64,000 nucleotides of DNA from Leucobacter luti. GTDB lineage: Bacteria > Actinomycetota > Actinomycetes > Actinomycetales > Microbacteriaceae. Where the stretch lies: the NCBI RefSeq assembly GCF_019464495.1, contig NZ_CP080492.1, forward strand, positions 2,046,001 to 2,110,000. The letters are read 5' to 3'. Position numbers and translations under genes: made by a program. The notes under the pieces were generated by a model. That model was given only the letters and a program-made list of their open reading frames with translations. It did not search any database and had not been told where the DNA came from. Positions 10,662-49,382 of the stretch are shown here, in pieces (position 1 is the stretch's first letter; each line of letters starts with the position of its first letter).

Positions 10662-11420
10662 CTACCGCGAGACGAGCGTGGTTTCGAAGGAGTAGAGATC
10701 GGGTCGATAGCAGTGGTGGCCGGCTTCAACCACTCGGCCGCCCTGGTCGAATGCGACGCGGTCCATCGTGAGCAGCGGCCCGCCCTTCGGCACGTCGAGG
10801 AGTTCGTGCTCGTCACCGTGTGCGCGCCTGGCACCGATCGTCTGGTTCGCTACCTTGATCGTGGTGCCTCGTGCGCGCAAGATCTCATAGAGGCCGTGCG
10901 TAGTGAGCGCCTCCTCGGTGATGTCTGCGAATTCGGGCGGGAGGAAGTTCTCGAGGATCGCTACGGGCGTGCCATCCGTGCCGCGCAGGCGTCGGATCTT
11001 GGTGATTTCGGTGCCCGGATCGACGCGCAGCAGCAGCGCTGTGGCTTCGTCGGCCGGCACGCGCTCGAGTGACAGCACACGTGTCGTCGGGGATTGACCC
11101 ACTCGCGCGAGATCTTCGTGGAGGCTGGTGAGTTCAACCGGGCGAGAGACGCGCGCCTGCACCACCTGGGTGCCGATCCCGCGCCGCCGCACCAGGAGAC
11201 CCTTGTCGACGAGCTCTTGGATCGCGCGCCGGACGGTGGGCCGGGAGAGGGAGAGCCGCTCACCGATGGCGATCTCGTTTTCGAGCCGCGCGCCTGCAGG
11301 GATCGTGCCCTCGCGGATCGCGCGCTCAAGCCGCGTGGAGATCTGGAAGTAGAGGGGCACCGGGCCCGAGCGGTCGAGGTCGGCGAAAACCTCATCGGGC
11401 CAAACGGCGTCGGTGCTCAT
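10662..11420 (-). CDS. iolR: GntR/HutC-family transcriptional regulator, probable inositol regulator
   Basis: The 252-residue product has an N-terminal winged helix (residues 15-85; PLYFQISTRLERAIREG and the recognition region RLSLSRPTVRRAIQELVDKG). A C-terminal UTRA effector domain begins near VGQSPTTRVLSL and runs to SFETTLVSR. It is divergent from iolC with a 169-bp intergenic region that carries IolR-type sites. Known: Corynebacterium uses a GntR-family IolR with motif KGWCHTRACA to repress iol genes. The role here is inferred from position and from matching sites. UTRA regulators usually respond to a pathway intermediate or phosphorylated sugar. Confidence 0.75.
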   Translation of the reverse strand: MSTDAVWPDEVFADLDRSGPVPLYFQISTRLERAIREGTIPAGARLENEIAIGERLSLSRPTVRRAIQELVDKGLLVRRRGIGTQVVQARVSRPVELTSLHEDLARVGQSPTTRVLSLERVPADEATALLLRVDPGTEITKIRRLRGTDGTPVAILENFLPPEFADITEEALTTHGLYEILRARGTTIKVANQTIGARRAHGDEHELLDVPKGGPLLTMDRVAFDQGGRVVEAGHHCYRPDLYSFETTLVSR

Positions 11421-11452
11421 GTGCTCTCCTTGCAGGTGACTGTGACATATCC

Positions 11453-11464
11453 GACATCGATGTC
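11453..11464. promoter_or_regulatory. 12-bp perfect palindrome GACATCGATGTC between iolR and iolC
   Basis: A perfect palindrome 33 bp upstream of the iolR start on the minus strand. It may be an autoregulatory site or part of an extended operator. It is flanked by TGTGACATAT and TGTACGGACA. Confidence 0.4.
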
Positions 11465-11468
11465 GTTA

Positions 11469-11589: not shown

Positions 11590-12546
11590 ATGTCGGAGGC
11601 TCGACGTCCGGATGACGTGCTGGTGATGGGGCGACTCGGAGTCGATATTTACCCGCTCCAGAGCGGCGTAACGCTCGACACAGTCGACACGTTCGGGAAG
11701 TATCTCGGCGGGAGCGCGGCAAACGTCGCAGTCGCCGCTGCGCGATACGGCCACTCGAGTGCGCTCGTCTCCCGAGTCGGCAATGATCCCTTCGGCCGCT
11801 ACCTGCTCGCAGAGCTTGATCGGCTCGGCGTCGACCCCCGTGAGGTGCGCGTCGACCCGCAGTATCTGACGCCGATCACCTTCTGCGAGATCTTTCCGCC
11901 TGACGACTTCCCGCTCTACTTCTACCGCGAACCGAAGGCGCCAGACCTGGAGATCGCGGTGGAGGATCTGGACGAGCAGGCCATCCAGGCCGCTCAAATC
12001 CTGTGGCTCACCGTCACCGGCTTCAGCCAGGAGCCGAGCCGAGCGGCGCACCACGCGGCGCTCGCTGCACGTGGCCGCCGCACGCACACGATCCTTGATC
12101 TCGACTACCGGCCCATGTTCTGGGAAGACCCCGCCGAGGCAAGCGCCCAGGTGGGCCGCGCGCTCGACCACGTCTCCGTTGCGGTTGGCAACCGCGAGGA
12201 GTGCGAGATCGCCGTGGGCGAGACAGACCCGGACCGGGCAGCTGACGCGCTACTTGAGCGCGGCGTTGAGCTCGCCGTCGTGAAGCAGGGCCCCAAGGGC
12301 GTGCTCGCGAAGACCCGCGCTGAGCGGGTCGAGGTGGCGCCGCACTTCGTCGACGTCGTCAACGGCCTCGGCTCCGGTGATGCGTTCGGCGGCGCCCTCT
12401 GCCACGGGCTCCTTGAGGGCTGGGACCTCGAACAGATTTTCCGCTTCGCCAACGTCGCTGGTGCCATCGTTGCCACTCGTCTCGAGTGCTCGACGGCGAT
12501 GCCAGACGCGGCCGAGGTCAACACCATCCTCGCTCAGGGAGCCTGA
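11590..12546 (+). CDS. iolC: 5-dehydro-2-deoxygluconokinase (IolC), PfkB sugar kinase
   Basis: The 318-residue product is a ribokinase/PfkB-fold kinase. IolC phosphorylates 5-dehydro-2-deoxy-D-gluconate in myo-inositol breakdown. The N-terminal GGSAANVAVAAARYG and the C-terminal NGLGSGDAFGGAL (catalytic Asp) are the PfkB signatures. VMGRLGVDIYPLQSGV and LDLDYRPMFW are typical of IolC. The ATG at 11590 is chosen because GGGGAAAGGCGG precedes it. First gene of the core iol operon; the aldolase gene follows after 1 bp, matching the IolC-aldolase pairing expected for sequential steps. Confidence 0.9.
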   Translation: MSEARRPDDVLVMGRLGVDIYPLQSGVTLDTVDTFGKYLGGSAANVAVAAARYGHSSALVSRVGNDPFGRYLLAELDRLGVDPREVRVDPQYLTPITFCEIFPPDDFPLYFYREPKAPDLEIAVEDLDEQAIQAAQILWLTVTGFSQEPSRAAHHAALAARGRRTHTILDLDYRPMFWEDPAEASAQVGRALDHVSVAVGNREECEIAVGETDPDRAADALLERGVELAVVKQGPKGVLAKTRAERVEVAPHFVDVVNGLGSGDAFGGALCHGLLEGWDLEQIFRFANVAGAIVATRLECSTAMPDAAEVNTILAQGA

Positions 12547-12547: not shown

Positions 12548-13432
12548 ATGACACTGGATTTTGATCGCCTGCGCGAACTCCGCGCCGCCGACCCCACCGG
12601 GATCTCCCGCGCGCTCGCGGAACGCCGCCGCCGCGATGTGATCCAAGGCGACGGGCGACTGTTCATCGTCGCCGCGGATCACCCGGCACGTGGCGCGATC
12701 GCCGTTGGTCAGAATCCGACCGCAATGGCGAACCGCTACGACCTGCTCGAGCGGATGGCGCTCGCGCTGTCCCGGCCCGGCGTTGACGGTGTGCTCGGCA
12801 CCCCCGACATTATTGACGACCTCGCAGCGCTCGGGCTGCTTGACGACAAGATCATTGTCGGCTCGATGAACCGCGGCGGCCTCCGCGGCGCCTCCTTCGA
12901 GCTCGATGATCGCTACACGGCGTACGACGTGCCAGCGATGGTGCGGCAGGGGATTGACTTTGCGAAGACTCTGATCCGAGTCGATCTGCAGGACGAGGGC
13001 ACGGCAGCAACGCTCGCGGCGACTGCGCGGGCGGTGGACGCCGCTGCTGCCGCCGGACTCCCAATCATGCTGGAGCCGTTCATGAGCAGCCGAGTCGACG
13101 GCAAAGTCATCAATGATCTGACGGCGAACGCCGTGATCCTCTCCACCGCAATCGCCTCGGGCCTCGGGAACTCGAGTGCCCACACCTGGATGAAGCTGCC
13201 AGTCGTGCCCGAGATGGAGCGCGTCATGGAAGCAACGACGATGCCGACGCTGCTGTTGGGCGGCGACAACGGCGACGCCCCCGACATCATGTACTCCGCG
13301 TGGGAGCGCGCGCTCGCGCTGCCAGGCGTGCGCGGCCTGACGGTCGGCCGCACGCTGCTGTACCCGAGCGATGGCGATGTTGCCGGCGCCGTCGACACTG
13401 CCGCGCGTCTCGTGCACCGCAACCTGCCGTAG
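12548..13432 (+). CDS. Cgl0159-family (beta/alpha)8 protein, probable DKGP aldolase
   Basis: The 294-residue product resembles the Cgl0159 family found next to iolC in actinobacteria. It is a class I aldolase-like barrel (VAADHPARGAIAVG near residue 40; DLQDEGTAATL and IMLEPFMSSR mid-protein; LLLGGD and TVGRTLLYP near the end). By position it should replace IolJ, splitting phosphorylated 5-dehydro-2-deoxygluconate into dihydroxyacetone phosphate and malonate semialdehyde. Function is inferred from context. It starts 1 bp after iolC, and about 70 bp separate it from iolA. Confidence 0.78.
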   Translation: MTLDFDRLRELRAADPTGISRALAERRRRDVIQGDGRLFIVAADHPARGAIAVGQNPTAMANRYDLLERMALALSRPGVDGVLGTPDIIDDLAALGLLDDKIIVGSMNRGGLRGASFELDDRYTAYDVPAMVRQGIDFAKTLIRVDLQDEGTAATLAATARAVDAAAAAGLPIMLEPFMSSRVDGKVINDLTANAVILSTAIASGLGNSSAHTWMKLPVVPEMERVMEATTMPTLLLGGDNGDAPDIMYSAWERALALPGVRGLTVGRTLLYPSDGDVAGAVDTAARLVHRNLP

Positions 13433-13500: not shown

Positions 13501-15015
13501 ATGAGCACCGACACTCTCCCCGTTATCCCGCACTGGATCGACGGCGCACGCTTCGAGTCGACGAGCGGCCGCACGGCCCCCGTCTACAACCCGGCCACCG
13601 GCGAACTGCAGGCGCACGTTGCGCTCGCGAGCGAAGCAGAGATCTCCGCGGCGATCCAATCGGCCCAGCGCGGCTTCGAGACCTGGAGCGCGTTCTCCAT
13701 GGCAAAGCGCCAGACCATCATCTTCGCGTTCCGCGAGTTGCTGAACGCGCGCAAGGGCGAACTCGCCGACATCATCACCGCCGAGCACGGCAAAGTGCGC
13801 TCGGACGCGATGGGCGAGATCCTGCGCGGCCAGGAAGTCGTAGAGCTCGCGACGGGGTTCCCGCACCTGATCAAGGGCGCGTTCTCGGAAAACGCTTCGA
13901 CCGGGATCGACGTCTACTCGATCAAGCAGCCGATCGGCGTCGCCGGTATCATCTCGCCGTTCAACTTCCCAGCGATGGTGCCGATGTGGTTCTTCCCCGT
14001 TGCGATCGCCGCGGGGAACGCCGTCATCGTGAAGCCGTCGGAGAAAGACCCGTCGGCAGCGCTCTGGCTCGCAGAGCTGTGGGCGGAGGCTGGCCTTCCT
14101 GCCGGCGTGTTCACCGTGCTCAATGGGGACAAGCTCGCAGTTGACGGGCTGCTCACCGATCCGATCGTGCAGTCGATCTCATTCGTCGGCTCGACACCGA
14201 TCGCGCAATACATCTACGAGACCGCGTCGAAGCACGGCAAGCGCGTGCAGGCACTCGGCGGTGCGAAGAACCACATGCTCGTGCTGCCGGATGCAGATCT
14301 CGATCTCGTTGCTGATCAAGCGATCAATGCCGGCTACGGCGCGGCAGGCGAGCGCTGCATGGCGATTTCCGTGGTGCTGGCGGTGGAGCCGGTCGCCGAT
14401 GAGCTGATCGTCAAGATCCAGGAGCGTATCGCGCAGCTCACAATCGGCAACGGCGCGACGACCCCCGAACCCGACATGGGGCCGCTGATCACCGCGGCAC
14501 ACCGCGAGAAGGTGTCGTCCTACGTCGACATCGCCGAACAGGATGGCGCGACGATCGTCGTCGACGGCCGTGACTTCCGCGTCGACGGCGCCGAAGACGG
14601 TTTCTTCTTCGGCCCGACGTTGATCGACCGGATCCCCACCACCTCCCGCGCCTACACCGAGGAGATCTTCGGCCCGGTGCTGGAGATTGTCCGGGTCGCC
14701 ACGTTCGATGAGGGTGTTGCGCTGATCAACTCGGGTGAGTTCGGCAACGGCACCGCGATCTTCACGAACGATGGGGGAGCGGCACGCCGATTCCAGCACG
14801 AGATCCAGGTCGGCATGATCGGGATCAATGTCCCGATCCCGGTCCCCGTTGCGTACCACTCCTTCGGCGGGTGGAAGGCCTCGCTGTTTGGTGATGCGAA
14901 AGCGTACGGCGTGCACGGCTTCGACTTCTTCACACGCGAGAAAGCGATCACGAGCCGCTGGCTTGATCCGGCGAAGCACGGCGGGATCAACCTCGGTTTC
15001 CCGCAGAACGACTAG
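13501..15015 (+). CDS. iolA: Methylmalonate-/malonate-semialdehyde dehydrogenase, CoA-acylating (IolA/MmsA)
   Basis: The 504-residue product is an aldehyde dehydrogenase of the CoA-acylating MmsA branch. It turns malonate semialdehyde, the final iol intermediate, into acetyl-CoA and CO2 with NAD+. Motifs are ISPFNFPAMVPMWFFPVA (typical of MmsA), FVGSTPIAQYIYE, ALGGAKNHMLVLPDAD, the catalytic Cys286 in AAGERCMAIS, and the C-terminal FFTREKAITSRW. Length matches the family. The ATG at 13501 follows GAAGAGGA. It sits between the aldolase and iolB, as expected. Confidence 0.93.
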   Translation: MSTDTLPVIPHWIDGARFESTSGRTAPVYNPATGELQAHVALASEAEISAAIQSAQRGFETWSAFSMAKRQTIIFAFRELLNARKGELADIITAEHGKVRSDAMGEILRGQEVVELATGFPHLIKGAFSENASTGIDVYSIKQPIGVAGIISPFNFPAMVPMWFFPVAIAAGNAVIVKPSEKDPSAALWLAELWAEAGLPAGVFTVLNGDKLAVDGLLTDPIVQSISFVGSTPIAQYIYETASKHGKRVQALGGAKNHMLVLPDADLDLVADQAINAGYGAAGERCMAISVVLAVEPVADELIVKIQERIAQLTIGNGATTPEPDMGPLITAAHREKVSSYVDIAEQDGATIVVDGRDFRVDGAEDGFFFGPTLIDRIPTTSRAYTEEIFGPVLEIVRVATFDEGVALINSGEFGNGTAIFTNDGGAARRFQHEIQVGMIGINVPIPVPVAYHSFGGWKASLFGDAKAYGVHGFDFFTREKAITSRWLDPAKHGGINLGFPQND

Positions 15016-15083: not shown

Positions 15084-16121
15084 ATGACGCAGCAGGCTGA
15101 ACGCTGGTTCCATCGCCGTGGCGATCTCGCCGCAGCAGGGTGGGAAACCGTTGTTGACGAGCACACTCCGGGCTGGGCACACACTGGACTGCGTGTGGGG
15201 CGACTCAGCGCTGGTGACACCCTCGCGCTCGACGGCACTGGTGTGGAGCGGCTGGTTGTGCCGCTCTCTGGCTCGTTCTCCGTGCGGTACCGAAGCGCTG
15301 GTGCGGGATCGGGCGCCGGTGCCGACACCGTCGCAGACACGGTCACCGAGCTTGCGGGTCGCGCCTCCGTGTTCGACGGTCCAACCGACGTGCTGTACCT
15401 CGGCGCGAATGCGACAGGCACCGTCACTGCGACCGGGCCGGGCGAGAGCCGCTTTCTCGTCGCGACTTCACCGACGGACATCGTGCGGCCGAGCCACTAC
15501 ATGCCTGTCGCAGACGTGCCCGTTGAGCTGCGCGGGGCCGGCGCGTCCAGTCGCCAGGTGCACAACTTCGGTCGCAAGGAGTCGCTCGACGCGGCCCGCT
15601 TCATCGTCGTGGAAGTGATCACTCCGGCCGAGAACTGGTCCTCCTACCCGCCCCACAAACACGATGAGCACGTGCCGGGCCACGAGTCGGAGCTCGAGGA
15701 GATCTACTACTTCGAGGTCGCGCCGACACAGGACGCCCCGGCGGGGGTCAGCGCAGAACACGCATTTGGCATGTTCAGCACGTACTCCTCCCCAGCGGGT
15801 CCCATCGAGATCGACGCACGGGTGTATACCGGAGACGTCGCACTCGTGCCGCACGGCTACCACGGCCCAGCCGTCGCCGCCCCCGGGTACGACATGTACT
15901 ACCTGAACGTGATGGCAGGCCCGGATCCGGAGCGCAGCTGGCTGATCAGCGACGACCCGGCGCACGGCTGGGTCCGCGAAACCTGGGAGGGGCAGGAGCT
16001 GGATCCGCGCCTGCCGTTTGCATCCGCGACGTCTGGAATCCAAGCCGTCCCGGCTGCCGCTGATCCGTCTGCCAGCACCACCACCACTGTTCCCGCACCA
16101 GAAACGGAGGATCCTCGATGA
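15084..16121 (+). CDS. iolB: 5-deoxy-glucuronate isomerase (IolB)
   Basis: The 345-residue product is a bicupin isomerase converting 5-deoxy-glucuronate to 5-dehydro-2-deoxygluconate. The metal-binding cluster YPPHKHDEHVPGHESELEE (about residue 190) and the later VPHGYHGP are the IolB signatures. It is longer than Bacillus IolB (about 270 residues), mostly through an N-terminal Gly/Ala-rich insertion and a Pro/Thr/Ala tail. The ATG at 15084 is preceded by GTGGAG. The stop overlaps the iolD start by 4 bases (ATGA). Confidence 0.92.
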   Translation: MTQQAERWFHRRGDLAAAGWETVVDEHTPGWAHTGLRVGRLSAGDTLALDGTGVERLVVPLSGSFSVRYRSAGAGSGAGADTVADTVTELAGRASVFDGPTDVLYLGANATGTVTATGPGESRFLVATSPTDIVRPSHYMPVADVPVELRGAGASSRQVHNFGRKESLDAARFIVVEVITPAENWSSYPPHKHDEHVPGHESELEEIYYFEVAPTQDAPAGVSAEHAFGMFSTYSSPAGPIEIDARVYTGDVALVPHGYHGPAVAAPGYDMYYLNVMAGPDPERSWLISDDPAHGWVRETWEGQELDPRLPFASATSGIQAVPAAADPSASTTTTVPAPETEDPR

Positions 16122-18041
16122 CCACCAGCCGCATGACGGTCAGCCAGGCGCTGATCGAGTTCCTCGCAAATCAGTGGACGCTGGACCGTGATGGTGCGGG
16201 TGCTGAGATCCGTGAACGGACCATCCCGGGCACGTTTGGGATCTTCGGGCACGGAAACGTGGCCGGGATCGGGCAGGCGCTGAAACAGCTCAACACGCAC
16301 GATCCCGAGTTGATGCCCTATTACCAGGCACGGAACGAACAGGCGATGGTGCACCAGGCCGTCGGCTACGCCCGGATGCACCGCAGGCGCGGCACCTACG
16401 CTGCCGCGGCGTCGGTCGGCCCGGGAGCAGCGAACCTGCTCACGGGCGCGGCGCTCGCCACCACGAACCGGCTGCCGGCCCTGCTATTGCCGAGCGACAC
16501 GTTTGCGACTCGCGTTGCGGATCCCGTGCTGCAGCAGTTGGAGCAGCCGCACGACATCGGGCTCACAGTGAACGACGCGTTCCGCCCGGTGTCCAGGTTC
16601 TTCGATCGCGTGCAGCGCCCCGAGCAGCTGTTCGCGATCGCGCTCGCCGCAATGCGCGTCCTCACCGATCCGGCCGAGACCGGTGCCGTGACTATCGCGT
16701 TGCCCGAGGATGTGCAGGCCGAGGCGATTGACGTGCCTGCCGAGTTCCTGCAGCCGCGCGAGTGGCGCATCCGGCGCCCGCGGCCCGAGCGCGACGCGTT
16801 CGCCGCGGCGCTGCGAGCGATCAGGAAGCCAAACGCCCGCTGATCGTTGCGGGTGGCGGGGTGCTCTACTCTGAGGCCGAGACTCAGCTGCGCGCGTTCG
16901 TCGAAGCGACCGGGATTCCTGTGGGGAGCTCGCAGGCCGGCGGCGGCGTGCTCGATTGGGATCACCCGCAGAACCTCGGGGGATCGGGGCGACCGGAACA
17001 CTGGCGGCGAACCGCCTGGCAGCGGAGGCCGATCTGATCATCGGGATCGGCACGCGCTACAGCGACTTCACGACCGCCTCGCGCACCGCGTTCCAGCACC
17101 CCGATGTGCGGTTCGTGAACATCAACGTCGCGGCCTTCGACGCGTACAAACACGGCTCGCAGCTGCCCGTCGTTGCTGATGCGCGTGAGACGCTGCTCGA
17201 GCTGCTTGAGGTCGCAGGCGAGCTGCGGATCGACGCCGACTACGCCGAGCGGATCGTGCGGGAGAAGCGCGAGTGGGATGCGCTGGCCGATGCGGCGCTC
17301 GCGCCGACCGGCTTGGCGCTACCCGGCCAGAGCGAGATCATCGGCGCCGTGCAGCGCTCCTCCGATCCCGCAGACGTCGTGGTGCAGGCAGCAGGATCGC
17401 TGCCAGGCGACCTGCACAAGCTGTGGCGGGTGCGCGATCCGCTCGGCTACCACGTTGAATACGCATTCTCGTGCATGGGCTACGAGATCGCAGGTGGGCT
17501 CGGCGCAAAACGTGGGCTGCTCGCAGCTGGCGACGACCGCGATGTGATCGTGATGGTCGGTGACGGGTCCTACCTGATGCTCAACACGGAGCTCGTGACG
17601 GCGGTGGCCGAGGGGATCAAGCTCATTGTTGTCCTGATCCAGAACCACGGCTACGCCTCGATCGGGCACCTTTCTGAAACCGTCGGGTCCGAGCGCTTCG
17701 GCACCTGGTATCGCGAGTACGATCCCGCGGCCCGCAATTTCCAGGGGGAACAGGTGTTGCCAGTGGATCTCGCAATGAACGCGCGCAGCTATGGGATGGA
17801 CGTGATCGAGGTGGAGCCGGGGCCCGATGCGATCGCTGATCTCGAGGCCGCGATGGCGACTGCGAAGGCGTCTGAGCGGGCAACGTTCATCCACATCAAC
17901 AGCGATCCGCTACGGTACGCGCCGGACGGCGCCGGCTGGTGGGATGTCCCCGTCGCCGAGGTGTCGACGATCGAGTCGACGCAGCGCGCCCGCACCGAGT
18001 ACGAAGCTCAGCAGCAGGCCCAGCGGCCCCTGCTCGGGTAG
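16118..18041 (+). CDS. iolD: Trihydroxycyclohexane-1,2-dione hydrolase IolD, copy 1 (two frame breaks)
   Basis: This thiamin diphosphate enzyme opens the inositol-derived ring (3D-trihydroxycyclohexane-1,2-dione to 5-deoxy-glucuronate). The first part (16118 to about 16820) has FGIFGHGNVAGIGQAL and the catalytic Glu in ARNEQAMVHQ. The middle (about 16826-16978) reads EAKRPLIVAGGGVLYSEAE. The rest (about 16980-18041) has IGATGTLAANRL, the TPP-metal motif VGDGSYLMLNTELV and IQNHGYAS. Restoring one base near 16811-16826 and one in the GGGGG run at 16978-16982 gives about 641 residues, normal for IolD. All domains and catalytic residues are preserved, so a sequencing error is likelier than decay. 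A second, intact iolD lies at 35858. Confidence 0.88.
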
Positions 18042-18194: not shown

Positions 18195-19121
18195 GTGAAC
18201 GAACTGTCAGCTGAGAACCCCGGACTCCGCATTGGGACAGCGCCCGACTCGTGGGGCGTGTGGTTCCCGGACGACCCGGCGCAGGTCCCGTGGCAGCGCT
18301 TCCTCGACGAGGCAGTGCAGGCCGGCTACGAGTGGATCGAGCTCGGTCCCTACGGCTACCTTCCGACTGACCCGCATCAGCTGGAAGACGAGCTCGGATC
18401 CCGCGGGCTGAAGCTCTCCGCCGGCACCGTCTTCACCGGGTTTCACAAGGGTGAGGACGAGTGGACCCGGGCCTGGGATCAGGCGCTCGACGTTGCCGGC
18501 CTCGCCTCGAAGCTTGGTGCCGAGCACCTGGTCGTAATCCCGGACCTCTGGCGCAGCGACGCGACGAGTGAAGTGCTCGAGTCGCGCACGCTAGACGATG
18601 CGCAGTGGCAGAAGCTTGCCGCGGGCCACGACCGGCTCGGCAAAGCGCTGCTCGAAGAGTTCGGTATGCGCCAGCAGTTCCACTCCCACGCCGACAGTCA
18701 CATCGGCACAACGCGGGAGGTGCTGCGGTTCCTCGACGAGACCGACCCGCGCTACACGAACCTCTGCCTCGACACCGGGCACTTCGCGTACTACGGCGGC
18801 GACAACGTCAAGCTGATCGAGGATCGCCCAGAGCGCATTGGCTACCTGCACCTCAAGCAGGTTGATCCGACGCTGCTGTTCGATGTGCTGAAGAATGACC
18901 AGCCGTTCGCGTCTGCCGTCGCCGACGGGATCATGATCGAACCGCCGCACGGGATCCCGGATCTGGCCCCGATCATTGAGGCTGTTGCGCAGATCGACTC
19001 GGACATCTTCGCGATCGTCGAGCAGGACATGTACGGCTGCGATGTCGACGCGCCGTTCCCGATTGCGCAGCGCACTCGCGAGCACATTTTTGGCTGCACG
19101 CATCTGGCGCGAACCTCCTAG
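18195..19121 (+). CDS. iolE: Inosose dehydratase-like TIM barrel (IolE family)
   Basis: The 308-residue product is an AP-endonuclease-fold sugar isomerase/dehydratase. IGTAPDSWGVWFPDDP at the N-terminus, FHSHADSHIGT, LCLDTGHFAYYGGDN and EQDMYG carry the metal-binding Glu, His and Asp expected in IolE, which dehydrates 2-keto-myo-inositol. The GTG at 18195 is chosen since ACGAGGAG lies about 9 bases upstream; TTG at 18168 is possible. It is placed between iolD and iolG, consistent with the pathway. Another IolE-like gene lies at 45399, and which is the main inosose dehydratase is uncertain. Confidence 0.8.
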   Translation: MNELSAENPGLRIGTAPDSWGVWFPDDPAQVPWQRFLDEAVQAGYEWIELGPYGYLPTDPHQLEDELGSRGLKLSAGTVFTGFHKGEDEWTRAWDQALDVAGLASKLGAEHLVVIPDLWRSDATSEVLESRTLDDAQWQKLAAGHDRLGKALLEEFGMRQQFHSHADSHIGTTREVLRFLDETDPRYTNLCLDTGHFAYYGGDNVKLIEDRPERIGYLHLKQVDPTLLFDVLKNDQPFASAVADGIMIEPPHGIPDLAPIIEAVAQIDSDIFAIVEQDMYGCDVDAPFPIAQRTREHIFGCTHLARTS

Positions 19122-27327: not shown

Positions 27328-27361
27328 ATTCAATGCTCCGATTCTGAGGTGCGTGTCGTGG

Positions 27362-34315: not shown

Positions 34316-34345
34316 TTGACCTGGGTCAAGCCATGTGCTTATGAT
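34316..34345 (+). promoter_or_regulatory. Promoter of the aldehyde dehydrogenase-iolD2 operon
   Basis: TTGACC (34316-34321) and TATGAT (34340-34345) with an 18-bp spacer. The LacI-type operator starts at the very next base. Confidence 0.65.
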
Positions 34346-34359
34346 TTGGACCGGTCCAA
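34346..34359. promoter_or_regulatory. LacI-type operator, CCGG class (perfect palindrome)
   Basis: TTGGACCGGTCCAA is a perfect 14-bp palindrome, directly after the -10 box and 22 bp before the ATG. The layout is the same as at 44001. It is the clearest member of this operator class. Confidence 0.75.
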
Positions 34360-34381
34360 CCTGGAAACAAGGAGGCGTCGA

Positions 34382-41705: not shown

Positions 41706-42619
41706 ACGCCTCAACGGCAATTGCAACGCCGCTCGTAGAGCTGCGTGACGCTGAAAAGCGCTACGGCAACATCATCGCGCTACGAGACGTAAGCCTGAAG
41801 GTGAGTTCAGGCGAGGTCATGTGTGTGCTCGGCGACAACGGCGCAGGGAAGTCAACGCTGATCAAGATCATTGCGGGCCTGCACCAGCACACCGGTGGTG
41901 AGTTTCTCATCGAGGGTGAAGAGGTGAAGCTGGGATCGCCGCGCGAGGCGCTGAACCGGGGCATCGCGACGGTGTACCAGGATCTCGCGGTCGCTCCGCT
42001 GATGCCGGTGTGGCGCAACTTCTTCCTCGGCTCTGAGCAGACGAAGGGCTGGGGGCCGTTCAAGCGCCTGGACATCGATTTCATGCGGAAGACCGCGAAA
42101 AAGGAACTGCTCGACATGGGCATTGATCTGCGCGATGTTGATCAGCCGATCGGAACGCTCTCGGGCGGCGAGCGACAGTGCGTCGCGATTGCTCGCGCAG
42201 TGTATTTCGGGGCGAAAGTGCTCATCCTGGACGAACCGACAGCGGCGCTCGGTGTGAAGCAGTCGGGTGTGGTGCTGCGCTACATCATCCAGGCGCGGGA
42301 TCGCGGCCTCGGTGTGGTCTTCATCACGCACAACCCGCACCACGCGTACCCGGTTGGCGATCGATTCTTGCTGCTCAAACGCGGTCAGAGTATTGGCTAC
42401 CACGAGAAGGCCGACATCACGCTCGAGGAGCTGACCGGTCTGATGGCGGGTGGCGCAGAGCTTGAGCAACTGGTGCATGAGCTGCGTCAGGTGGGTACGA
42501 GCACGGACACTGTGCGCACCATCCGCGACGAAATCGAGGACGATGCTGCCGCAGGAGTCGGTCGCGTCACCGTGACCGAGGTGGTCAGCGTCGTGCTTCC
42601 TGAGGACGACGAGCGCTAG
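41702..42619 (+). CDS. Sugar ABC importer, single-domain ATPase
   Basis: The 305-residue product has Walker [11 protein letters not shown], signature LSGGERQ, Walker B VLILDEP and the switch His in [13 protein letters not shown]. Most CUT2 ATPases such as RbsA carry two fused ATPase domains (about 500 residues); this one has one, like FrcA-type proteins, plus an acidic 55-residue tail ([15 protein letters not shown] to PEDDER). The GTG at 41702 overlaps the permease stop. A hairpin terminator follows. Confidence 0.9.
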
Positions 42620-42635: not shown

Positions 42636-42673
42636 CAGAGGGGCGCTCTCCAGGCAGGGAGAGCGCCCCTCTG
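42636..42673 (+). terminator. Terminator of the sugar ABC operon
   Basis: A perfect 16-bp stem: CAGAGGGGCGCTCTCC at 42636-42651 pairs with 42658-42673 around a 6-base loop, 17 bases after the ATPase stop. Confidence 0.75.
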
Positions 42674-42783: not shown

Positions 42784-43968
42784 ATGAGCGTCTCGCGCTG
42801 GATCCTGATCGCAGCACTCGCGTGCGGCGGGTTCGGTATCGGGGTGAGTGAGTTCCTGGTGATGGGACTCCTCCCGCAGATCGCCGAGGATCTGTTGCCT
42901 GAGTTGGTGCGGAGCCACCGCGATGCCGCGCTCGCCGCAACGGGCGGTATGGCTTCCGCATACGCAGCCGGTGTCGCCGTTGGCATCTTCACGACACCGC
43001 TGCTGGTCCGCAGGCTCTCGGAGCGCCACGCGCTTCTGGTGTGCGCCGGGAGCATGGTGCTCTGGACGGTGCTCACCGCCCTCGCGCCGACGCTTCCCAT
43101 CGCACTCGCCCTGCGCTTTCTCTCGGCACTGACCCACGCGAGCTTCATCGGTCTGGGGGCGATGGCGATCGCGCATGTGCTGGGCTCGCGCAGCTACGGC
43201 AGGGGCTCCGCGATCGTGCACGGCGGGCTCGCGCTCGCCAATCTTGCCGGAGTACCAGCGCTCACCGCGTTGGGAGCCGTCGTTGACTGGCGCGTGATTC
43301 TCGGATCCTGCGCGCTGCTCTTCGCCGCTCCGCTCCTGGCGTTGGTGCTCGTCGATGTGCCAGATGCGGCGCACGGCACGAGCGCGCCGAGCACGGCGCG
43401 CGTGCGCACGAAGAATCTGGTCCTGTTGTTTGGTTCCGCGATCGTGGGGGCCGCTGGTGGCTTCACGATTCTCACGTACGTCGCTCCGGTCACGCTCTGG
43501 ACACGCGGGGACGATACCTGGGTCACCGCGGCGATCGCCATGCTGGCGTTCGGGATCGGAATGAATCTCGGCAATTTGGTGTCGGGGATGCTCGCGGATC
43601 GCGCAGCAGGGCTCGCGTTCGGGGGAGCGATCTGCGCAGGTGTGTTCGGTGCCGCGTTGCTGCTCATTCCGGGTGCTGGTGGGGTCATGACGGTCGCCGG
43701 GGTGCTCCTCATCGGGGTGCTGCTGGGTGGGCAGGGGCCTGCCGGGCAGGTGCTATATCTCCGAGAGCTCAGCCGGTTCCCTCGGCTTGCGGCGTCGTTG
43801 CCCTCTGGCACTGGGAATCTCGGCAGTTTTGCTGGCGCGCTTTTCGGGGCAGGGCTGTTGGCGGGCTTCGGCCCGGGGGTGATTCCGATCGGTGCTGGTG
43901 CGTTGCTCATCATCGCGTTGGTCGCGTTTTTTGGCTACACCAGACTGCTGCGATCTCGCGCTCCATGA
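42784..43968 (+). CDS. MFS transporter, DHA1/AraJ-like
   Basis: The 394-residue product has about 12 helices and the DHA1 style start GGFGIGVSEFLVMGLLPQIA, GIFTTPLLVRRLSERHAL with the loop 2-3 motif and a second half beginning NLVLLFGSAIVGAAGG. Relatives export sugars, drugs or amino acids. Its position inside the cyclitol region may mean sugar export or overflow control, but this is not shown by sequence. AGGGGGAACC lies just upstream of the ATG. Confidence 0.83.
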   Translation: MSVSRWILIAALACGGFGIGVSEFLVMGLLPQIAEDLLPELVRSHRDAALAATGGMASAYAAGVAVGIFTTPLLVRRLSERHALLVCAGSMVLWTVLTALAPTLPIALALRFLSALTHASFIGLGAMAIAHVLGSRSYGRGSAIVHGGLALANLAGVPALTALGAVVDWRVILGSCALLFAAPLLALVLVDVPDAAHGTSAPSTARVRTKNLVLLFGSAIVGAAGGFTILTYVAPVTLWTRGDDTWVTAAIAMLAFGIGMNLGNLVSGMLADRAAGLAFGGAICAGVFGAALLLIPGAGGVMTVAGVLLIGVLLGGQGPAGQVLYLRELSRFPRLAASLPSGTGNLGSFAGALFGAGLLAGFGPGVIPIGAGALLIIALVAFFGYTRLLRSRAP

Positions 43969-43970: not shown

Positions 43971-44000
43971 TTGACACTTAAGTCAGTATGTACTTACAAT
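43971..44000 (+). promoter_or_regulatory. Promoter of the Gfo/Idh-IolE operon
   Basis: TTGACA (43971-43976) and TACAAT (43995-44000) with an 18-bp spacer, right after the MFS stop codon. The LacI-type operator follows at once. Confidence 0.7.
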
Positions 44001-44014
44001 TTGGACCGGTCCAT
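44001..44014. promoter_or_regulatory. LacI-type operator, CCGG class
   Basis: TTGGACCGGTCCAT differs from the perfect palindrome at 34346 only in the last base. It is placed immediately downstream of the -10 box, as at 34346. Confidence 0.72.
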
Positions 44015-44087
44015 TTCTTGACGGTGGGCTCCGCAACGACGCACCCGGTGCTCGAACGGCCCGACACCTCGACGGAAAGAACTCCTC

Positions 44088-45329
44088 ATGCAGACGAACG
44101 AAGACGGCAGCATCACGATCGGCGTAGGCCTCATCAGCGTCGGATGGATGGGGCAGCTCCACAGCCGGGCGTACTCGAATCTGCGCTACGCATATCCGGA
44201 TCTGAAGCTTCGCCCTCGCCTCGTGCACGCGGCTGATCCAGCCCCCGCGCGCGCCACTGAAGCTCGCGAGGTGCTCGGCTACGAACGCGCGTCGGCGGAC
44301 TACCAGGACGTGCTCAACGACCCGGAAGTCGACGTTGTCTCGATTTGCGCACCGAACTTCCTCCATGCCGAGATCGGAATCGCGGCGGCGAAGGCGGGCA
44401 AGCATTTCTGGATTGAGAAGCCAGTGGGCCGCGGCGAGGCTGAGACCCGCGCCGTCGCCGAGGCAGCTGCCGAGTCGGGAGTCGTCTCGTCGATCGGGTT
44501 CAACTACCGGCATGCGCCTGCAATCGAGTACCTGCGAGAGCTCGTAGCGGAGGGCAAGCTCGGTCGAATCACCAACGTGCGCGGCCAAATGTTCGCTGAC
44601 TACTCAGCGGATCCGCGGGGTGCCCTGTCCTGGCGCTTCGTCCGCGGTCTCGCCGGCACCGGCGTGCTGGGTGATCTCATGGGCCACCTCGTCGACCTCG
44701 TGCAGTACACGCTGGGGCCGATTGCAGAGGTCACCGCGGTCACATCGACGGTCTACTCCGAGCGGCCCGAGCTGCCCATGGGAACCGGCACACACTTCGC
44801 CGTGATTGAAGACGGAGTGATGAAGCCGGTCGAGAACGAGGACTATGCGGGCATGCTCGTGCGCCTCGCAGATGATGCAGCGGCCGCCGGCGCGGTCGGC
44901 ACGCTCGAGGCCTCCCGTGTCGCAGTGGGTCCCCGGGCGAGCTACGGCATCGAGGTCTACGGCACCGCAGGATCGGCGCACTGGGACTTCGAACGGCTCA
45001 ACGAGCTGCACGTCTCGGGCGGACTCGGGGCCGAGTATCCGGGCTACGCCCGCGTCATGGCGCACGCCGGCATGGGGGACTTCAGCCGTTTCCAGCCGGG
45101 AGCTGGCACCTCCATGGGCTATGACGATCTCAAGGTGATCGAGGCCAAGAAGTTCTTGCAAGCCGTGCTCGGCCGAGAACAGCTGAACTCGAACATCCAG
45201 GACGCGCTCTCTGCCGCCCAGGTAATCACCGCAGCAGAGCGCTCGGCAGAAGGGCGCACCTGGGAAGCCAGCACGGCGGTCGCGGGAACGACCGCCGCTA
45301 CACGCCACGAGTCGCACACGGAATCCTGA
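44088..45329 (+). CDS. Gfo/Idh/MocA-family dehydrogenase (longer form)
   Basis: The 413-residue product has the Rossmann motif VGLISVGWMGQLHSRAY, the EKP equivalent WIEKPVGRGEAETR, and the C-terminal GDLMGHLVDLVQYTLG. It is longer than IolG (about 340) and closer to the subgroup that acts on glycosides or keto-sugars, where a large C-terminal domain carries the substrate loop. The ATG at 44088 heads a run of five co-directional genes with an IolE-like protein, another Gfo/Idh, an SDR and a fourth dehydrogenase. Confidence 0.85.
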   Translation: MQTNEDGSITIGVGLISVGWMGQLHSRAYSNLRYAYPDLKLRPRLVHAADPAPARATEAREVLGYERASADYQDVLNDPEVDVVSICAPNFLHAEIGIAAAKAGKHFWIEKPVGRGEAETRAVAEAAAESGVVSSIGFNYRHAPAIEYLRELVAEGKLGRITNVRGQMFADYSADPRGALSWRFVRGLAGTGVLGDLMGHLVDLVQYTLGPIAEVTAVTSTVYSERPELPMGTGTHFAVIEDGVMKPVENEDYAGMLVRLADDAAAAGAVGTLEASRVAVGPRASYGIEVYGTAGSAHWDFERLNELHVSGGLGAEYPGYARVMAHAGMGDFSRFQPGAGTSMGYDDLKVIEAKKFLQAVLGREQLNSNIQDALSAAQVITAAERSAEGRTWEASTAVAGTTAATRHESHTES

Positions 45330-45398: not shown

Positions 45399-46268
45399 AT
45401 GAACGCACGAATTGCCGCCGCACCCATCAGCTGGGGCGTTATCGAGGTTCCGAACTGGGGGGTGCAGCTGGACCGCGAGCGAGTGCTCGCCGAGATGACC
45501 AGCCTGGGCGTGAGCGCGACTGAGTTCGGGCCGGAAGGATTCTTGCCCGATGCTCCTGCCGAGCGCGCGCAGGTGCTCGCCGAGGCCGGACTCACCGCGG
45601 TGGGCGGCTTCTTCCCGATCGTGCTGCACGACGCGGACCAGGATCCGCTGCCCGCCATCGAGCGTGAGCTTCAGGCGTATGTCGCCGCAGGGGCTGACAC
45701 GCTCGTGCTCTCCGCAGTGACCGGCCGCGAAGGCTATGACGGTGTGAGTGAGCTCAGCGAGACCGAGTGGGGCACGCTCGTGAGCAATCTCGATCGGGCA
45801 CTCGACGCGGCTGCGGCGGTCGGTGTGGTTGCGACGCTGCACCCGCACCTGGGGACCGTTGTCGAGTCGCCTGCCGCTGTCGAACGTGTGCTGAGCGGGT
45901 CCCGGATCGGGCTCTGCCTCGACGCCGGGCATTTCACCCTTGGCGGCGGTGATCCAGTGCAACTGGTGCGGGATCACGCCGATCGCATCGTGCACGCGCA
46001 CCTCAAAGACGTGAGCCGGGATGTCGCTGGGCGCGTTCGTGCCGGAGAGATCAGCTATCGCGACGGCGTGCAGCAGGGCATGTACTGCGCCCTCGGGGAA
46101 GGAGATGCGCGCATTCCGGAGATCGTCGCTGCCCTGCGCGATGCCGGGTATGCCGGCTGGTACGTCATCGAGCAGGACACCGTGGTGGAATCCGAAGCAG
46201 ACGCCGAGCGCGCGCTTGAGAATGCGCGCCGCAGTATCGCGTTCATCCGCGCAGAGGTTGGGGCATGA
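45399..46268 (+). CDS. Inosose dehydratase-like TIM barrel (second IolE)
   Basis: The 289-residue product starts MNARIAAAPISWGVIEVPNW, the hallmark of bacterial IolE/MocC enzymes. It continues with TEFGPEGFLPD, VVATLHPHLGTVVES, LCLDAGHFTLGGGDP, HAHLKDV and VIEQDT, giving the metal-binding Glu, Asp and His set. It fits inosose dehydratase better than the gene at 18195. AAAGGAGTCACC precedes the ATG. The stop overlaps the start of the next Gfo/Idh gene (ATGA). Confidence 0.87.
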   Translation: MNARIAAAPISWGVIEVPNWGVQLDRERVLAEMTSLGVSATEFGPEGFLPDAPAERAQVLAEAGLTAVGGFFPIVLHDADQDPLPAIERELQAYVAAGADTLVLSAVTGREGYDGVSELSETEWGTLVSNLDRALDAAAAVGVVATLHPHLGTVVESPAAVERVLSGSRIGLCLDAGHFTLGGGDPVQLVRDHADRIVHAHLKDVSRDVAGRVRAGEISYRDGVQQGMYCALGEGDARIPEIVAALRDAGYAGWYVIEQDTVVESEADAERALENARRSIAFIRAEVGA

Positions 46269-47287
46269 GTGCCCCACTGCGAATCGGGCTGCTTGGCGCC
46301 TCGCGGATCGCTGAGCTCGCGATCATCGAGGCGAGCCGAGACACCGGTGACGTGCGCGCCGCAGTTGCCGCGCGCGATCCTGAGCGCGCCCGGGTCTTCG
46401 CCTCCAAGCATGACTTCGAGAGCAGTCACGCCGACTACGAAGCACTGATCGCCGACGAGTCGCTCGATCTGCTCTACATTGGCCTCCCGAACGGGCTGCA
46501 CGCCGAGTGGACGGTCAAGGCGCTCCGCGCCGGGCGCTCTGTGCTTGTGGAGAAGCCGTTTGCCGCGAACCTCGGTGAGTTCGACGTGGTCGCGGCCGAG
46601 CTGGAGCGCGCGAGGGGCTGGGCGTGGGAGGCGTTCCACTACGCTGACCACCCGCTCATGAGCCGTCTCCTCGACGTTGTGCGATCCGGCGAGATCGGGG
46701 AGTTGCGCGAGGTGCAGGTGGCGATGCTGATGCCGTCACCGCCAGCGACCGATCCGCGCTGGAACTTCGAGCTCGCGGGCGGCACGATGATGGATCTGGG
46801 CTGCTACGCCGTCAACGCGCTGCTGGTGCTCGCTGACGCGCTGGCACTGCCGGTCTCGCTCGCCACCGCGACCGGGGTGCCGCACGAACCAGATGCGCGG
46901 CTCGACGCCTCGATCGCGGCAGAGCTGCGTCTGGGCGACGTACCAGCCACACTGCGCGCGAGCATGGTCAGCGCGGAGTGGGAATTCAGCTACCGCGTGA
47001 TCGGGGAGCGCGGCGAGGTGCGCTCCCCGAACTTCGTGAAGCCGCAAGAGGACGACCGTCTGCTGGTGACGGTCGGCAGCGAGACGCGCGAGGAACGCAC
47101 TGGCACGATCTCCTCGTATGCGTACCAGCTCCGCCGGATCCGGGAGGCGCTGCACGCTGGTGAGCGCTCAGCAGCGGAACTCGATCGTTCACGCCGCACG
47201 ATGGAACTCATCGACGCCATCTACACGCTGAGCGGCTTCCCCCTCCGCCCTGGTTCGAAGGAGCTCCACGATGCAGCCACTGCTTGA
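46265..47287 (+). CDS. Gfo/Idh/MocA-family dehydrogenase
   Basis: The 340-residue product has the Rossmann motif IGLLGASRIAELAIIEAS, LLYIGLPNGLHAEW, VLVEKPFAANLGEFD and GGTMMDLGCYAVNALLVLA, which resemble the xylose/glucose-fructose oxidoreductase-like branch more than IolG. Its start overlaps the IolE-like stop. Its end overlaps the SDR start by 17 bases, so the genes are tightly linked. Confidence 0.85.
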   Translation: MSAPLRIGLLGASRIAELAIIEASRDTGDVRAAVAARDPERARVFASKHDFESSHADYEALIADESLDLLYIGLPNGLHAEWTVKALRAGRSVLVEKPFAANLGEFDVVAAELERARGWAWEAFHYADHPLMSRLLDVVRSGEIGELREVQVAMLMPSPPATDPRWNFELAGGTMMDLGCYAVNALLVLADALALPVSLATATGVPHEPDARLDASIAAELRLGDVPATLRASMVSAEWEFSYRVIGERGEVRSPNFVKPQEDDRLLVTVGSETREERTGTISSYAYQLRRIREALHAGERSAAELDRSRRTMELIDAIYTLSGFPLRPGSKELHDAATA

Positions 47288-48122
47288 TCAGAAGGTCCTC
47301 CTCGTCACCGGTGGCACACAGGGGCTCGGCCGAGCGATCGCTGAGGCGGCGGCCCGCGAGGGTGCCGCCGGCGTCGCCATCGTGGGCCGGACCGCTGAAA
47401 AGGCAGAGGTGGCGCTCGTCGCGATCCGTGCTGCCGCGCGCGCTGCTGCCGGTGCTCCCAGTGCTCCTGGTGCTGCCGCGAGTGCTGCGGACGAGACCCC
47501 GGCTTTCGAAGCGGTGGCGATCATCGCGGATCTCGCGGTGCCTGGTGAGGCGGAGCGTGTCGTCGCAGAGACCGGCGCGCGCTTCGGCCGCGTCGATAGC
47601 CTCGTGAACGCTGCGGGTGCAACCTCTCGCGGCACGCTGCTCGATACGAGCCGCGAGCTGCTGCAGGAGCACCTGAACCTCAACCTCGTCGTGCCGTTCA
47701 TGACGATGCAGGGTGCGGTCGCGGACATGCGAGAGCGCGGCTCATCAGGCACCATCGTGAACATCATCAGCATGGCGATGCACGGCGGTCAGCCCTACCT
47801 CGCGCCATACACTGCCTCGAAGGCAGGCCTTGCCGGGCTCACGAAGAACGTGGCGTTCGCGCATCGCTTCGACCGGATCCGGATCAACGGTCTCAACATC
47901 GGTTGGACCGCGACCCCCGGTGAGGCTGCAACGCAGAAGAACTTCCACGGCGCGGCTGACGACTGGCTCGCATCGGCCGAGGCGGCCCAACCCATGGGCA
48001 AGCTTGGGCGACCGGATGAGATTGCCGATGCGGTCGTCTTCTTGCTCAGCGAGCGCAGCGGCGTCGTTACCGGCTCCATTATCGACTGGGATCAGAACGT
48101 TCCCGGCGCCTACGACCAGTAG
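47271..48122 (+). CDS. Short-chain dehydrogenase/reductase (SDR)
   Basis: The 283-residue classical SDR has the cofactor motif TGGTQGLG, NAAGATSRG, the catalytic Tyr-Lys in YTASKAGLAG and NGLNIGWTATPGEAA. An Ala/Pro-rich insertion of about 20 residues lies after VALVAIRAAAR and is not part of the usual fold, suggesting a recent repeat expansion. It likely oxidises or reduces a cyclitol intermediate made by the neighbouring enzymes. A 17-bp overlap with the upstream gene suggests coupling. Confidence 0.85.
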   Translation: MQPLLDQKVLLVTGGTQGLGRAIAEAAAREGAAGVAIVGRTAEKAEVALVAIRAAARAAAGAPSAPGAAASAADETPAFEAVAIIADLAVPGEAERVVAETGARFGRVDSLVNAAGATSRGTLLDTSRELLQEHLNLNLVVPFMTMQGAVADMRERGSSGTIVNIISMAMHGGQPYLAPYTASKAGLAGLTKNVAFAHRFDRIRINGLNIGWTATPGEAATQKNFHGAADDWLASAEAAQPMGKLGRPDEIADAVVFLLSERSGVVTGSIIDWDQNVPGAYDQ

Positions 48123-48392
48123 ATCATCCCCCGAACGCGGGCTTCCCGCACTCACTGAGAGAGCAGCGCATGCGCATTGGCAGTATCGGCACCGACGCCG
48201 GCCGCGCCCCGACGCTCGCGACTGTCAATGACGGCGCACAGGCGACCCGTGTCGCTGCCGCTGCAGTGGCGTCGAAGCGGGCCGGAGGCGGTTTCGTGCG
48301 TGTGGCGGAAGCGCGATGAGCGGGATCGAGCGCACTGGATCGGTTCCTGCCGCGGTTCCTGCCGCGGTCCCTGCAGCGCTCCCCACCCCGAG

Positions 48393-49382
48393 GTGCCCGA
48401 TCCGCGCGCGGTTCCTGCGAAGCGCTGGGGGATCCTCGGGACGGGGTGGATCGCGGCCCGTTTTGTTGAAGCACTCCAGGCGAATACCGTGCAGCAAGTC
48501 GTGGCAGTGGGATCGCGCACGCGTGAGCGCGCGACGGAGTTCGCGGCGGAGCACGGGATCGCGCGGGCATACGGCAGCTACGAGGAGCTGGTCGCGGCGG
48601 AGGACGTCGACGTGGTCTACGTCGCCACCGGGCACCTCGATCACCTCGCACACGCCACGCTCGCGATCGAGGCTGGCAAAGCAGTGCTCGTGGAGAAGCC
48701 GATGACGCCGCGACTGGAGGACACGCAGCGCCTCGTCACGCTCGCCAGATCCCGCGGGGTGTTCGCGATGGAGGCCGTGTGGACGCTTGCGCTGCCCAGA
48801 TACTCAGTCGTGCGGCAGATTCTTGCGAGCGGGATGCTGGGCGACGTGGTCTCCGTCTCCGCGAACCTCGGTGAGCGGCTCGTCGATCACCACCGGGCGA
48901 TGGATCCGGCGCAGGGCGGTGGCGTGATGAACGACATCGGCAGCTACACGCTGATGTTCGCCAACGAGGTATTGCCCGGGCTCCGCGTCGTGGCCGCCCA
49001 CGGGCAGCGGCACCCGGAGCACGGCGCGATCGGGCAGTTCCATGCGTTGCTGGCGGATCCCGCTGACCGTCTCGCGACGGTGAGCGCGTCGATGCTCGCC
49101 GAGACTCCGACCACTGCGTTCATTGCTGGCACAGAAGCGACGCTGGAACTCGCGGCCCCGTTCTACCAGCCGGGCCCGGTCGTCGTGCGGTTCCACGACG
49201 GCACGGTGTTGCGGCACGACGAAGCTGCGCTCGCGCATACGCAGTTGTTCTGGGAGGCGCTTGAGGTGGCGCGCTGCCTTGAAGCGGGGCTGACCGAATC
49301 GCCGCTGCGTCCGCTCGCACAGACGCTGGCGACGGTCGCATTGATCGGGGAAGCCAGGGCGTTGATGGCGGACCCGGCGTAG
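48393..49382 (+). CDS. Gfo/Idh/MocA-family dehydrogenase (start uncertain)
   Basis: The GTG at 48393 gives 329 residues: RWGILGTGWIAARFVEALQA (Rossmann), VLVEKPMTPRLEDT, MEAVWTLALPRYS and NDIGSYTLMFANEVLPG. The last two motifs are typical of the trans-dihydrodiol dehydrogenase-like branch. The upstream 48170-48392 is odd. An ATG at 48316 gives GSVPAAVPAAVPAALPT in another frame, and a one-base gain near 48385 would fuse it to this gene. A 49-codon frame from 48170 (MRIGSIGTDAGRAP) is also open. The true start cannot be fixed by eye. Confidence 0.78.
   Translation: MPDPRAVPAKRWGILGTGWIAARFVEALQANTVQQVVAVGSRTRERATEFAAEHGIARAYGSYEELVAAEDVDVVYVATGHLDHLAHATLAIEAGKAVLVEKPMTPRLEDTQRLVTLARSRGVFAMEAVWTLALPRYSVVRQILASGMLGDVVSVSANLGERLVDHHRAMDPAQGGGVMNDIGSYTLMFANEVLPGLRVVAAHGQRHPEHGAIGQFHALLADPADRLATVSASMLAETPTTAFIAGTEATLELAAPFYQPGPVVVRFHDGTVLRHDEAALAHTQLFWEALEVARCLEAGLTESPLRPLAQTLATVALIGEARALMADPA

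Follow-up and report, generated by a model that had tools for sequence, protein, structure and literature searches.

A candidate second, kinase-free inositol core beside the canonical iol operon of Leucobacter luti

Does the very large inositol region of Leucobacter luti channel several cyclitols into one catabolic core, or does it hold a second core? We studied this region in a 64,000-nucleotide window (the whole stretch of DNA analysed, part of a single-contig 3.41-Mb genome), for which a sequence-only reading had proposed repeated dehydrogenase-barrel pairs acting as parallel entry routes into one core. Family-level gene identities were established by Pfam and NCBIfam profile scans, with bit scores compared to curated cut-offs, together with some PDB sequence comparisons (Table 1). 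All earlier gene counts proved correct: six Gfo/Idh dehydrogenases, six barrels (PF01261 at 18195, 20341, 26320, ~31361, 33369 and 45399), two IolD, two aldehyde dehydrogenases (ALDHs), three LacI, one GntR/UTRA, two major facilitator superfamily (MFS) proteins and one ATP-binding cassette (ABC) importer. As 6 of the 8 PF01408 matches in the genome fall within the region, the clustering is not due to chance. The scans also bear out a role in cyclitol catabolism, the presence of a canonical iol operon (IolA, IolB and IolC above cut-off) and additional dehydrogenase-barrel pairs with several regulators; individual pairs may act on different inositol isomers or other cyclitols. The single core fared less well: an IolE-like barrel (45399) and an IolD (35858, “IolD2”) belong to the right-hand part itself, the latter with an aldolase, a 2-hydroxyacid dehydrogenase (2HADH) and an ALDH next to it, which makes this part look like a second core. 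Nor are there six separately switched entry pairs, since Gfo 44088 and 46265 share one operon, and the palindrome upstream of it recurs before the ALDH2-IolD2-HpcH operon. Four genes had been missed: HpcH/HpaI (37810), the D-2-hydroxyacid dehydrogenase (38613), a short-chain dehydrogenase (SDR; 47271) and TauE (22631). The reading that we prefer, and to which we give about an even chance, divides the region into a canonical iol operon (GntR side, 10.7–21.2 kb), a LacI2-side Gfo-barrel pair (26.3–29.7 kb) and a LacI3-side second cyclitol core (~30–49 kb), the last separately regulated and degrading inositols oxidatively, with aldol cleavage of an unphosphorylated intermediate taking the place of the kinase route.

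Gene linkage supports a second core. Forty-six loci were fetched using a single protein, IolD2, as query, and gene order was taken from tblastn because a simple gene caller miscalled antisense open reading frames (ORFs) in GC-rich loci. Twenty-five loci (L001–L024, L045; IolD2 identity at least 63%) form an IolD2 clade, drawn from Leucobacter (ten), Streptomyces (seven) and one each of Nesterenkonia, Gulosibacter and Pontimonas (both metagenome-assembled genomes, MAGs), a Microbacteriaceae MAG, Nonomuraea, Intrasporangium, Kineosporia and Geodermatophilus; the other 21 (L025–L044, L046; identity at most 50%) carry a canonical, IolD1-type gene. Some contigs in both sets are short. ALDH2 and HpcH flank IolD2 in all 25 loci, across at least nine actinobacterial genera, and 2HADH is present in 24, the remaining locus (L011) having a partial match at a contig end. 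None of the three occurs in the 21 IolD1-type loci, where the usual neighbours are IolC, IolB and IolA, and at 60% query coverage no IolB, IolC or Cgl0159-like gene was found in any of the 25 IolD2-clade loci, L017 holding a 107-aa IolC-like piece. Gfo44 and Bar45 were present in 19 and 18 of the 25, and their distances correlate with those of IolD2 (r 0.73 and 0.98, respectively), as do the distances of ALDH2, HpcH and 2HADH (0.93–0.96). The same conserved linkage was seen among 54 genomes of the genus Leucobacter: IolD2 occurs in 18, and ALDH2, IolD2 and HpcH are adjacent in every one. At 211 of 274 IolD1-invariant columns, the majority residue of IolD2 is the same as in IolD1. Across the module, residues that are presumably the catalytic ones are invariant in HpcH (H60, R85, E163, D189), 2HADH (R233, E262, H280) and the ALDH2 piece (E115, C149).

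HpcH enzymes act on 2-oxo acids. In the route that we infer, a Gfo dehydrogenase (Gfo44, perhaps IolG2) would make an inosose, which the IolE-like Bar45 would dehydrate to a cyclic dione, whose ring IolD2 would open to yield 5-deoxyglucuronate. The order of the three steps that follow is likewise a proposal: ALDH2 would oxidise the aldehyde to give 5-deoxyglucarate, 2HADH would oxidise the C2 hydroxyl to a ketone, giving 2-oxo-3,4-dihydroxyadipate, and a retro-aldol reaction catalysed by HpcH would split this into hydroxypyruvate and malonate semialdehyde, of which IolA would convert the second to acetyl-CoA. Isomerisation by IolB, phosphorylation by IolC and aldol cleavage by IolJ to dihydroxyacetone phosphate would all be bypassed. 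This sequence would supply the 2-oxo acid for HpcH, which the canonical intermediate does not, and C2 of 5-deoxy-D-glucarate is R, compatible with a D-2-hydroxyacid enzyme. The two products were predicted before relevant neighbours turned up in Streptomyces: a tartronate semialdehyde reductase (GlxR) adjoins the module in three of the seven loci (L020 and L021, TIGR01505 400 and 410 bits vs 340.75; L018 by tblastn), and a (methyl)malonate semialdehyde dehydrogenase/IolA gene adjoins it in two (L017, L020), with a fragment in a third. These neighbours are at most suggestive of the predicted products. In L020 (7299–8243) and L021 (7362–8267) the reductase is a lone gene divergent from the module.

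The module also has a palindrome of its own. With up to three mismatches allowed, the window has three copies of TTTGGACCGGTCCAAA (expected 0.08; 0 of 100 shuffles reach three), before ALDH2 (one mismatch), Gfo44 (two) and IolG2 (three). The fetched loci, 1.32 Mb of sequence that overlaps in part and in which the module is over-represented, contain 40 sites with two mismatches or fewer, against none for the reversed pattern or for any of four other palindromes. A site precedes ALDH2 in 12 of the 25 IolD2-clade loci (all ten Leucobacter, Nesterenkonia and Geodermatophilus) and Gfo44 in 6 of the 7 Leucobacter loci with that gene; in the seventh, Gfo44 sits in the ALDH2 operon. Moreover, 16 of 17 sites at up to two mismatches in six whole genomes lie inside the cluster, the exception (G000:C1:2885917-2885932) having two mismatches. 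At up to three mismatches the pattern is not enriched genome-wide relative to its reverse (for example G000, 7 vs 7; G020, 2 vs 4; G026, 6 vs 9). Since these counts do not exceed the control, the case rests on the sites with two mismatches or fewer; given the mismatch levels and genome-wide counts, we regard the sites before ALDH2 and Gfo44 as firm and that before IolG2 as weak. Adjacency suggests LacI3 as the putative regulator at TTTGGACCGGTCCAAA, and LacI2 at TTGGAGCGCTCCAA, which separates the 26.3–28.6 kb pair from its LacI in the window as well as at each of the nine fetched loci showing both genes (six Leucobacter, Nesterenkonia, two Arthrobacter).

The pairs might still oxidise and epimerise different cyclitols with all carbon passing through IolB, IolC and the aldolase, as the sequence-only reading had it; the extra IolD would then be a paralogue, and ALDH, HpcH and 2HADH would handle side products. 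We regard this as rather unlikely, as it leaves unexplained why those three genes travel with IolD2 and not with IolD1. Speaking for it is the company that the module keeps. In 33 genomes with the module, from Leucobacter and beyond, IolC is present throughout, IolB has a match in all (32 above cut-off) and an IolD1-type gene occurs in 32; in the genus, 17 of the 18 IolD2-bearing genomes have IolD1, vs 10 of 36 others, with IolD1 split in the L. luti genome and in G051. A self-sufficient pathway in genomes without IolB and IolC was considered and set aside, there being no such genome among the 33. Genome G049 is informative here. It has the module, and its canonical operon consists of GntR, IolC, a Cgl0159-like gene, IolA, IolB and IolG1; IolD1 is absent genome-wide, IolE1 is lost (the sole IolE-type match being Bar45), and no IolH was found within the 60 kb examined (L070–L072, G049:C1:1925001-1985000). 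Therefore IolD2 and Bar45 can probably act on canonical intermediates. The module palindrome stands directly before iolA in this genome, as it does before ALDH2, Gfo44, the substrate-binding protein (SBP) gene, IolG2 and the MFS gene, so that IolA is probably wired to the module. This arrangement is also what a single core would accommodate.

Several observations weigh against our preferred reading of an oxidative second core. Chief among them, as regards an independent pathway, is the presence of IolC in every module genome, accompanied by the IolB and IolD1-type counts given above, and the retention of IolB and IolC in G049 suggests that the IolD2 product can enter the canonical branch. HpcH, 2HADH, Gfo44, Bar45 and SBP all score below the curated cut-offs of their nearest NCBIfam models; HpcH, for example, belongs to the PF03328 fold family and falls below the HpaI equivalog cut-off (176 vs 369). 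No TTTGGACCGGTCCAAA site precedes ALDH2 in 13 of the 25 loci, including all seven Streptomyces, and of the 8 loci with IolG2, only 2 have the site before that gene at two mismatches or fewer. The correlation of distances with those of IolD2, noted above in favour of the second core, would be expected from shared species history as well, and GlxR adjacency (3 of 25 IolD2-clade vs 0 of 21 IolD1-type loci) is not significant (p 0.24).

Alternatively, the second core may serve another cyclitol, be it a deoxy-, methyl- or amino-inositol or a different stereoisomer, with a ring-opened acid that the canonical enzymes could not use; HpcH would then release pyruvate or hydroxypyruvate and another aldehyde. 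A rhizopine-type binding protein, the 26 group-specific positions that separate IolD1 from IolD2, the permanent co-occurrence of the module with the canonical operon and the structures nearest Gfo44, which are scyllo-inositol/L-glucose and levoglucosan dehydrogenases, would all suit such a substrate. We nevertheless judge it unlikely, as IolD2 exceeds the IolD cut-off and G049 retains only the module's IolD and IolE-like genes beside IolG1, IolB and IolC. Returning to the oxidative route, its extension to a general statement, that the lower half of inositol catabolism exists in Actinobacteria in a second, kinase-free form controlled by a LacI regulator of its own, with 5-deoxyglucuronate as the branch point between routes, is tentative and falls a little short of an even chance.

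Some genes in the window are out of frame relative to two relatives, G020 and G029: IolD1 (two breaks, because of which it matches the IolD model only as two pieces, each below cut-off), IolG1, ALDH2, the Gfo at 27353, LacI2 (28649) and LacI1 (25269, near its 3' end). Such breaks, with IolD1 split in G051 too, could mean that the region is decaying, the canonical ring-opening step and further genes having lost their function through frameshifts; this seems to us improbable, since the corresponding genes are intact in relatives, and the breaks are mostly single-base deletions in G/C runs. Of 12 sites inspected, 11 could be aligned to relatives: nine are clean one-base deletions (seven in G/C runs), ALDH2 lacks two bases and LacI2 shows a mixed pattern. 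A frameshift-allowing gene model, which yields some false calls (e.g. at a 17-base overlap near 47.27 kb), gave 13 breaks in the window. Ten control stretches of 20 kb each from this genome gave 22, or 18 once calls at their ends are discounted; the density near the window resembles that inside it, three of the four closest stretches having 4–6 breaks each and the remaining ones 0–2. In three relatives, nine stretches together gave 4 breaks, or 1 when end calls are left out. Because the signal extends to other stretches of the same genome and is much lower in relatives, assembly indels are likelier than decay. Counting against assembly indels, 16 of 17 ALDHs of this genome among the matches listed are full length; 26 were found, and the other nine score lower and may include fragments. 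Genes in three further stretches of the window are out of frame relative to relatives (49421–50838, 53444–54225 and 61832–62604), mostly by one-base deletions.

In the LacI2-side pair, the Gfo frame break at 27.4–28.6 kb causes Gfo and barrel 26320 to be read as one 771-aa ORF. A true fusion was rejected, as these are two genes in G020 and G029, and the junction is out of frame relative to both. A levoglucosan pathway was likewise discarded: the Gfo at 27353 and Gfo44 reach 255 and 278 bits against an NF052479 cut-off of 650, and the IolE-like and IolD-like neighbours also speak against it. LacI1 and LacI2 are each 67–80% identical to the single LacI at the corresponding place in G020 and G029, and one of them looks like a duplicate relocated across the pair. 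A low-complexity repeat (29673–29888) lies 3' of LacI2, and after it comes an imperfect inverted repeat of 58 nt.

In the canonical operon, the Cgl0159-like protein may, from its position, be the aldolase; its family, PF22649, stands at the expected place of IolJ and is perhaps a further type of 2-deoxy-5-ketogluconate 6-phosphate (DKGP) aldolase. No IolE match exceeds the curated cut-off in any of five Leucobacter genomes, and Bar45 scores higher on the IolE model than the operon's own IolE1 (156 vs 130), both being under it. The closest named relatives, judged by IolD2, are Leucobacter strains (76–88% identity). More widely, an IolD2-type gene was found in 2 of 396 sampled genomes of the phylum (the L. 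luti genome and one at 66% identity, no other IolD there exceeding 51%); among 392 sampled Streptomyces it was present in 5, all already among the fetched loci. Carriage on plasmids was rejected: 163 PLSDB records match IolD2 and 44 match HpcH, none at 60% identity or more.

Table 1. Genes and sites of the inositol region, by position in the window
Feature	Position	Strand	Basis
GntR/UTRA regulator, divergent from canonical iol operon	10662..11420	-	PF07702 134 bits, PF00392
IolC, 5-dehydro-2-deoxygluconokinase	11617..12546	+	TIGR04382 378 bits vs cut-off 300
Cgl0159-like protein at IolJ aldolase place	12548..13432	+	PF22649 411 bits vs 27
IolA, (methyl)malonate semialdehyde dehydrogenase	13501..15015	+	TIGR01722 655 vs 448.5
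IolB, 5-deoxyglucuronate isomerase	15084..16121	+	TIGR04378 227 vs 205
IolD1, two apparent frameshifts	16118..18041	+	Profile scans, frame comparison with relatives
IolE1-type barrel	18195..19121	+	TIGR04379 130 bits, under cut-off 290
IolG1, Gfo/Idh, one apparent frameshift	19244..20259	+	NF052679 half match
AP_endonuc_2 barrel in IolH position	20341..21213	+	PF01261 143 bits
TauE protein	22631		Family scan
MFS sugar porter	23541..24947	+	PF00083 331 bits; TIGR00879 316 vs 237.8
LacI1, LacI2 paralogue, 3' end out of frame	25269..26120	+	Profile scans, comparison with relatives
Barrel of LacI2-side pair	26320..27327	-	PF01261; separate gene in G020 and G029
Levoglucosan/scyllo-inositol dehydrogenase-like Gfo/Idh, 3' end out of frame	27353..28551	-	NF052479 255 bits, below 650
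Palindrome ATTGGAGCGCTCCAAT, putative LacI2 operator	28584..28599	.	Same place in 9/9 fetched loci with both neighbours
LacI2, interrupted	28649..29673	+	PF00356 50 bits
Weak palindrome, 3 mismatches, upstream of IolG2	30040..30055	.	Pattern scan; no genome-wide excess over background
IolG2, inositol 2-dehydrogenase	30322..31329	+	TIGR04380 382 vs 355
Hydroxypyruvate-isomerase-like barrel	31361..32116	+	TIGR03234 106 bits, below 353; PDB 3ngf, 1k77
LacI3, intact; putative module regulator	32162..33244	+	Profile scans
Bar33, QuiC/IolI-like barrel	33369..34256	-	PF01261; PDB 5hmq, 2g0w, 1i60
Palindrome TTTGGACCGGTCCAAC, putative LacI3 operator, ~20 bp before ALDH2	34345..34360	.	Pattern scan
ALDH2, module core, interrupted near 34747	34382..35810	+	PF00171 399 bits
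IolD2, thiamine diphosphate (ThDP) ring-opening hydrolase, module core	35858..37813	+	TIGR04377 738 vs cut-off 715
HpcH/HpaI class II aldolase, module core	37810..38619	+	PF03328 116 bits; TIGR02311 176, below 369; PDB 7v8t, 4b5s
D-isomer-specific 2HADH, module core	38613..39563	+	PF02826 128 bits; TIGR01327 190, below 454; PDB 1wwk
ABC SBP, rhizopine type	39644..40636	+	NF052284 192, below 420
ABC permease	40659..41705	+	PF02653
ABC ATP-binding protein	41702..42619	+	PF00005
Perfect 16-bp hairpin after ABC genes, putative terminator	42636..42673	.	
MFS protein	42784..43968	+	Best models efflux-type, scores below their cut-offs
Palindrome TTTGGACCGGTCCATT, putative LacI3 operator before Gfo44	44000..44015	.	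Pattern scan
Gfo44, scyllo-inositol/levoglucosan dehydrogenase-like	44088..45329	+	PDB 6a3f 231, 5ya8 224 bits; NF052479 278, below 650
Bar45, IolE-like dehydratase	45399..46268	+	TIGR04379 156, below 290; PDB IolE 3cny, 9zmu
Gfo46	46265..47287	+	PF01408 63 bits
SDR	47271..48122	+	PF13561
Gfo48	48393..49382	+	PF01408 91 bits

If the proposed route is correct, it would provide an ATP-independent oxidative alternative for the lower half of inositol catabolism, some of the IolD genes counted in genome surveys that take IolB, IolC, IolD and IolE as the mark of inositol use would have been misread, and an HpcH aldolase and a 2-hydroxyacid dehydrogenase so far named at family level would gain testable functions, together with a defined operator. 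If the substrate is another cyclitol, genes would be identified for a compound so far without any assigned. How does this compare with known systems? IolD2 scores 58 bits against the structure of cyclohexane-1,2-dione hydrolase (2pgn), whose product, 6-oxohexanoate, is then oxidised to adipate. That enzyme likewise uses ThDP to hydrolyse a cyclic 1,2-dione, yielding an aldehyde acid, but its system, in the available part of the source (PMC13327070), involves neither a polyol nor an aldolase. The canonical myo-inositol pathway (IolG-IolE-IolD-IolB-IolC-IolJ-IolA) has its full gene set here at 11.6–21.2 kb; the second core retains the IolG/IolE/IolD-type first half but has HpcH, 2HADH and ALDH instead of IolB, IolC and an IolJ/DUF2090/Cgl0159-type aldolase. 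Large inositol catabolic gene clusters (IolCatGCs) are already published, with Leucobacter musarum and Nesterenkonia muleiensis as examples (Weber and Fuchs 2022, PMC9430895). Both of those loci (L004, L007) carry the second-core module; that study counts genes, and the available part of its text describes no HpcH/2HADH/ALDH unit, the word ‘hydroxyacid’ being absent from the main text. We found no description of an ALDH2-IolD2-HpcH-2HADH module in the open-access literature, subscription journals lying mostly outside this search, and the second core appears to be an undescribed variant of inositol catabolism with a predicted chemistry. The multiple inositol dehydrogenases of Corynebacterium glutamicum are entry enzymes, and the sections available describe no second ring-opening core there (PMC9603128). 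The alternative DKGP aldolases IolJ and DUF2090, as far as their account extends (PMC9007349), are similar in placing another aldolase in inositol catabolism but differ in acting on a phosphorylated substrate made by IolC. Similar in logic to the proposed route are the Weimberg and Dahms oxidative, non-phosphorylative sugar pathways, which, in the part of the source at hand (PMC9795676), likewise join oxidation to a subsequent kinase-free aldol cleavage, but do so for pentoses rather than for cyclitols.

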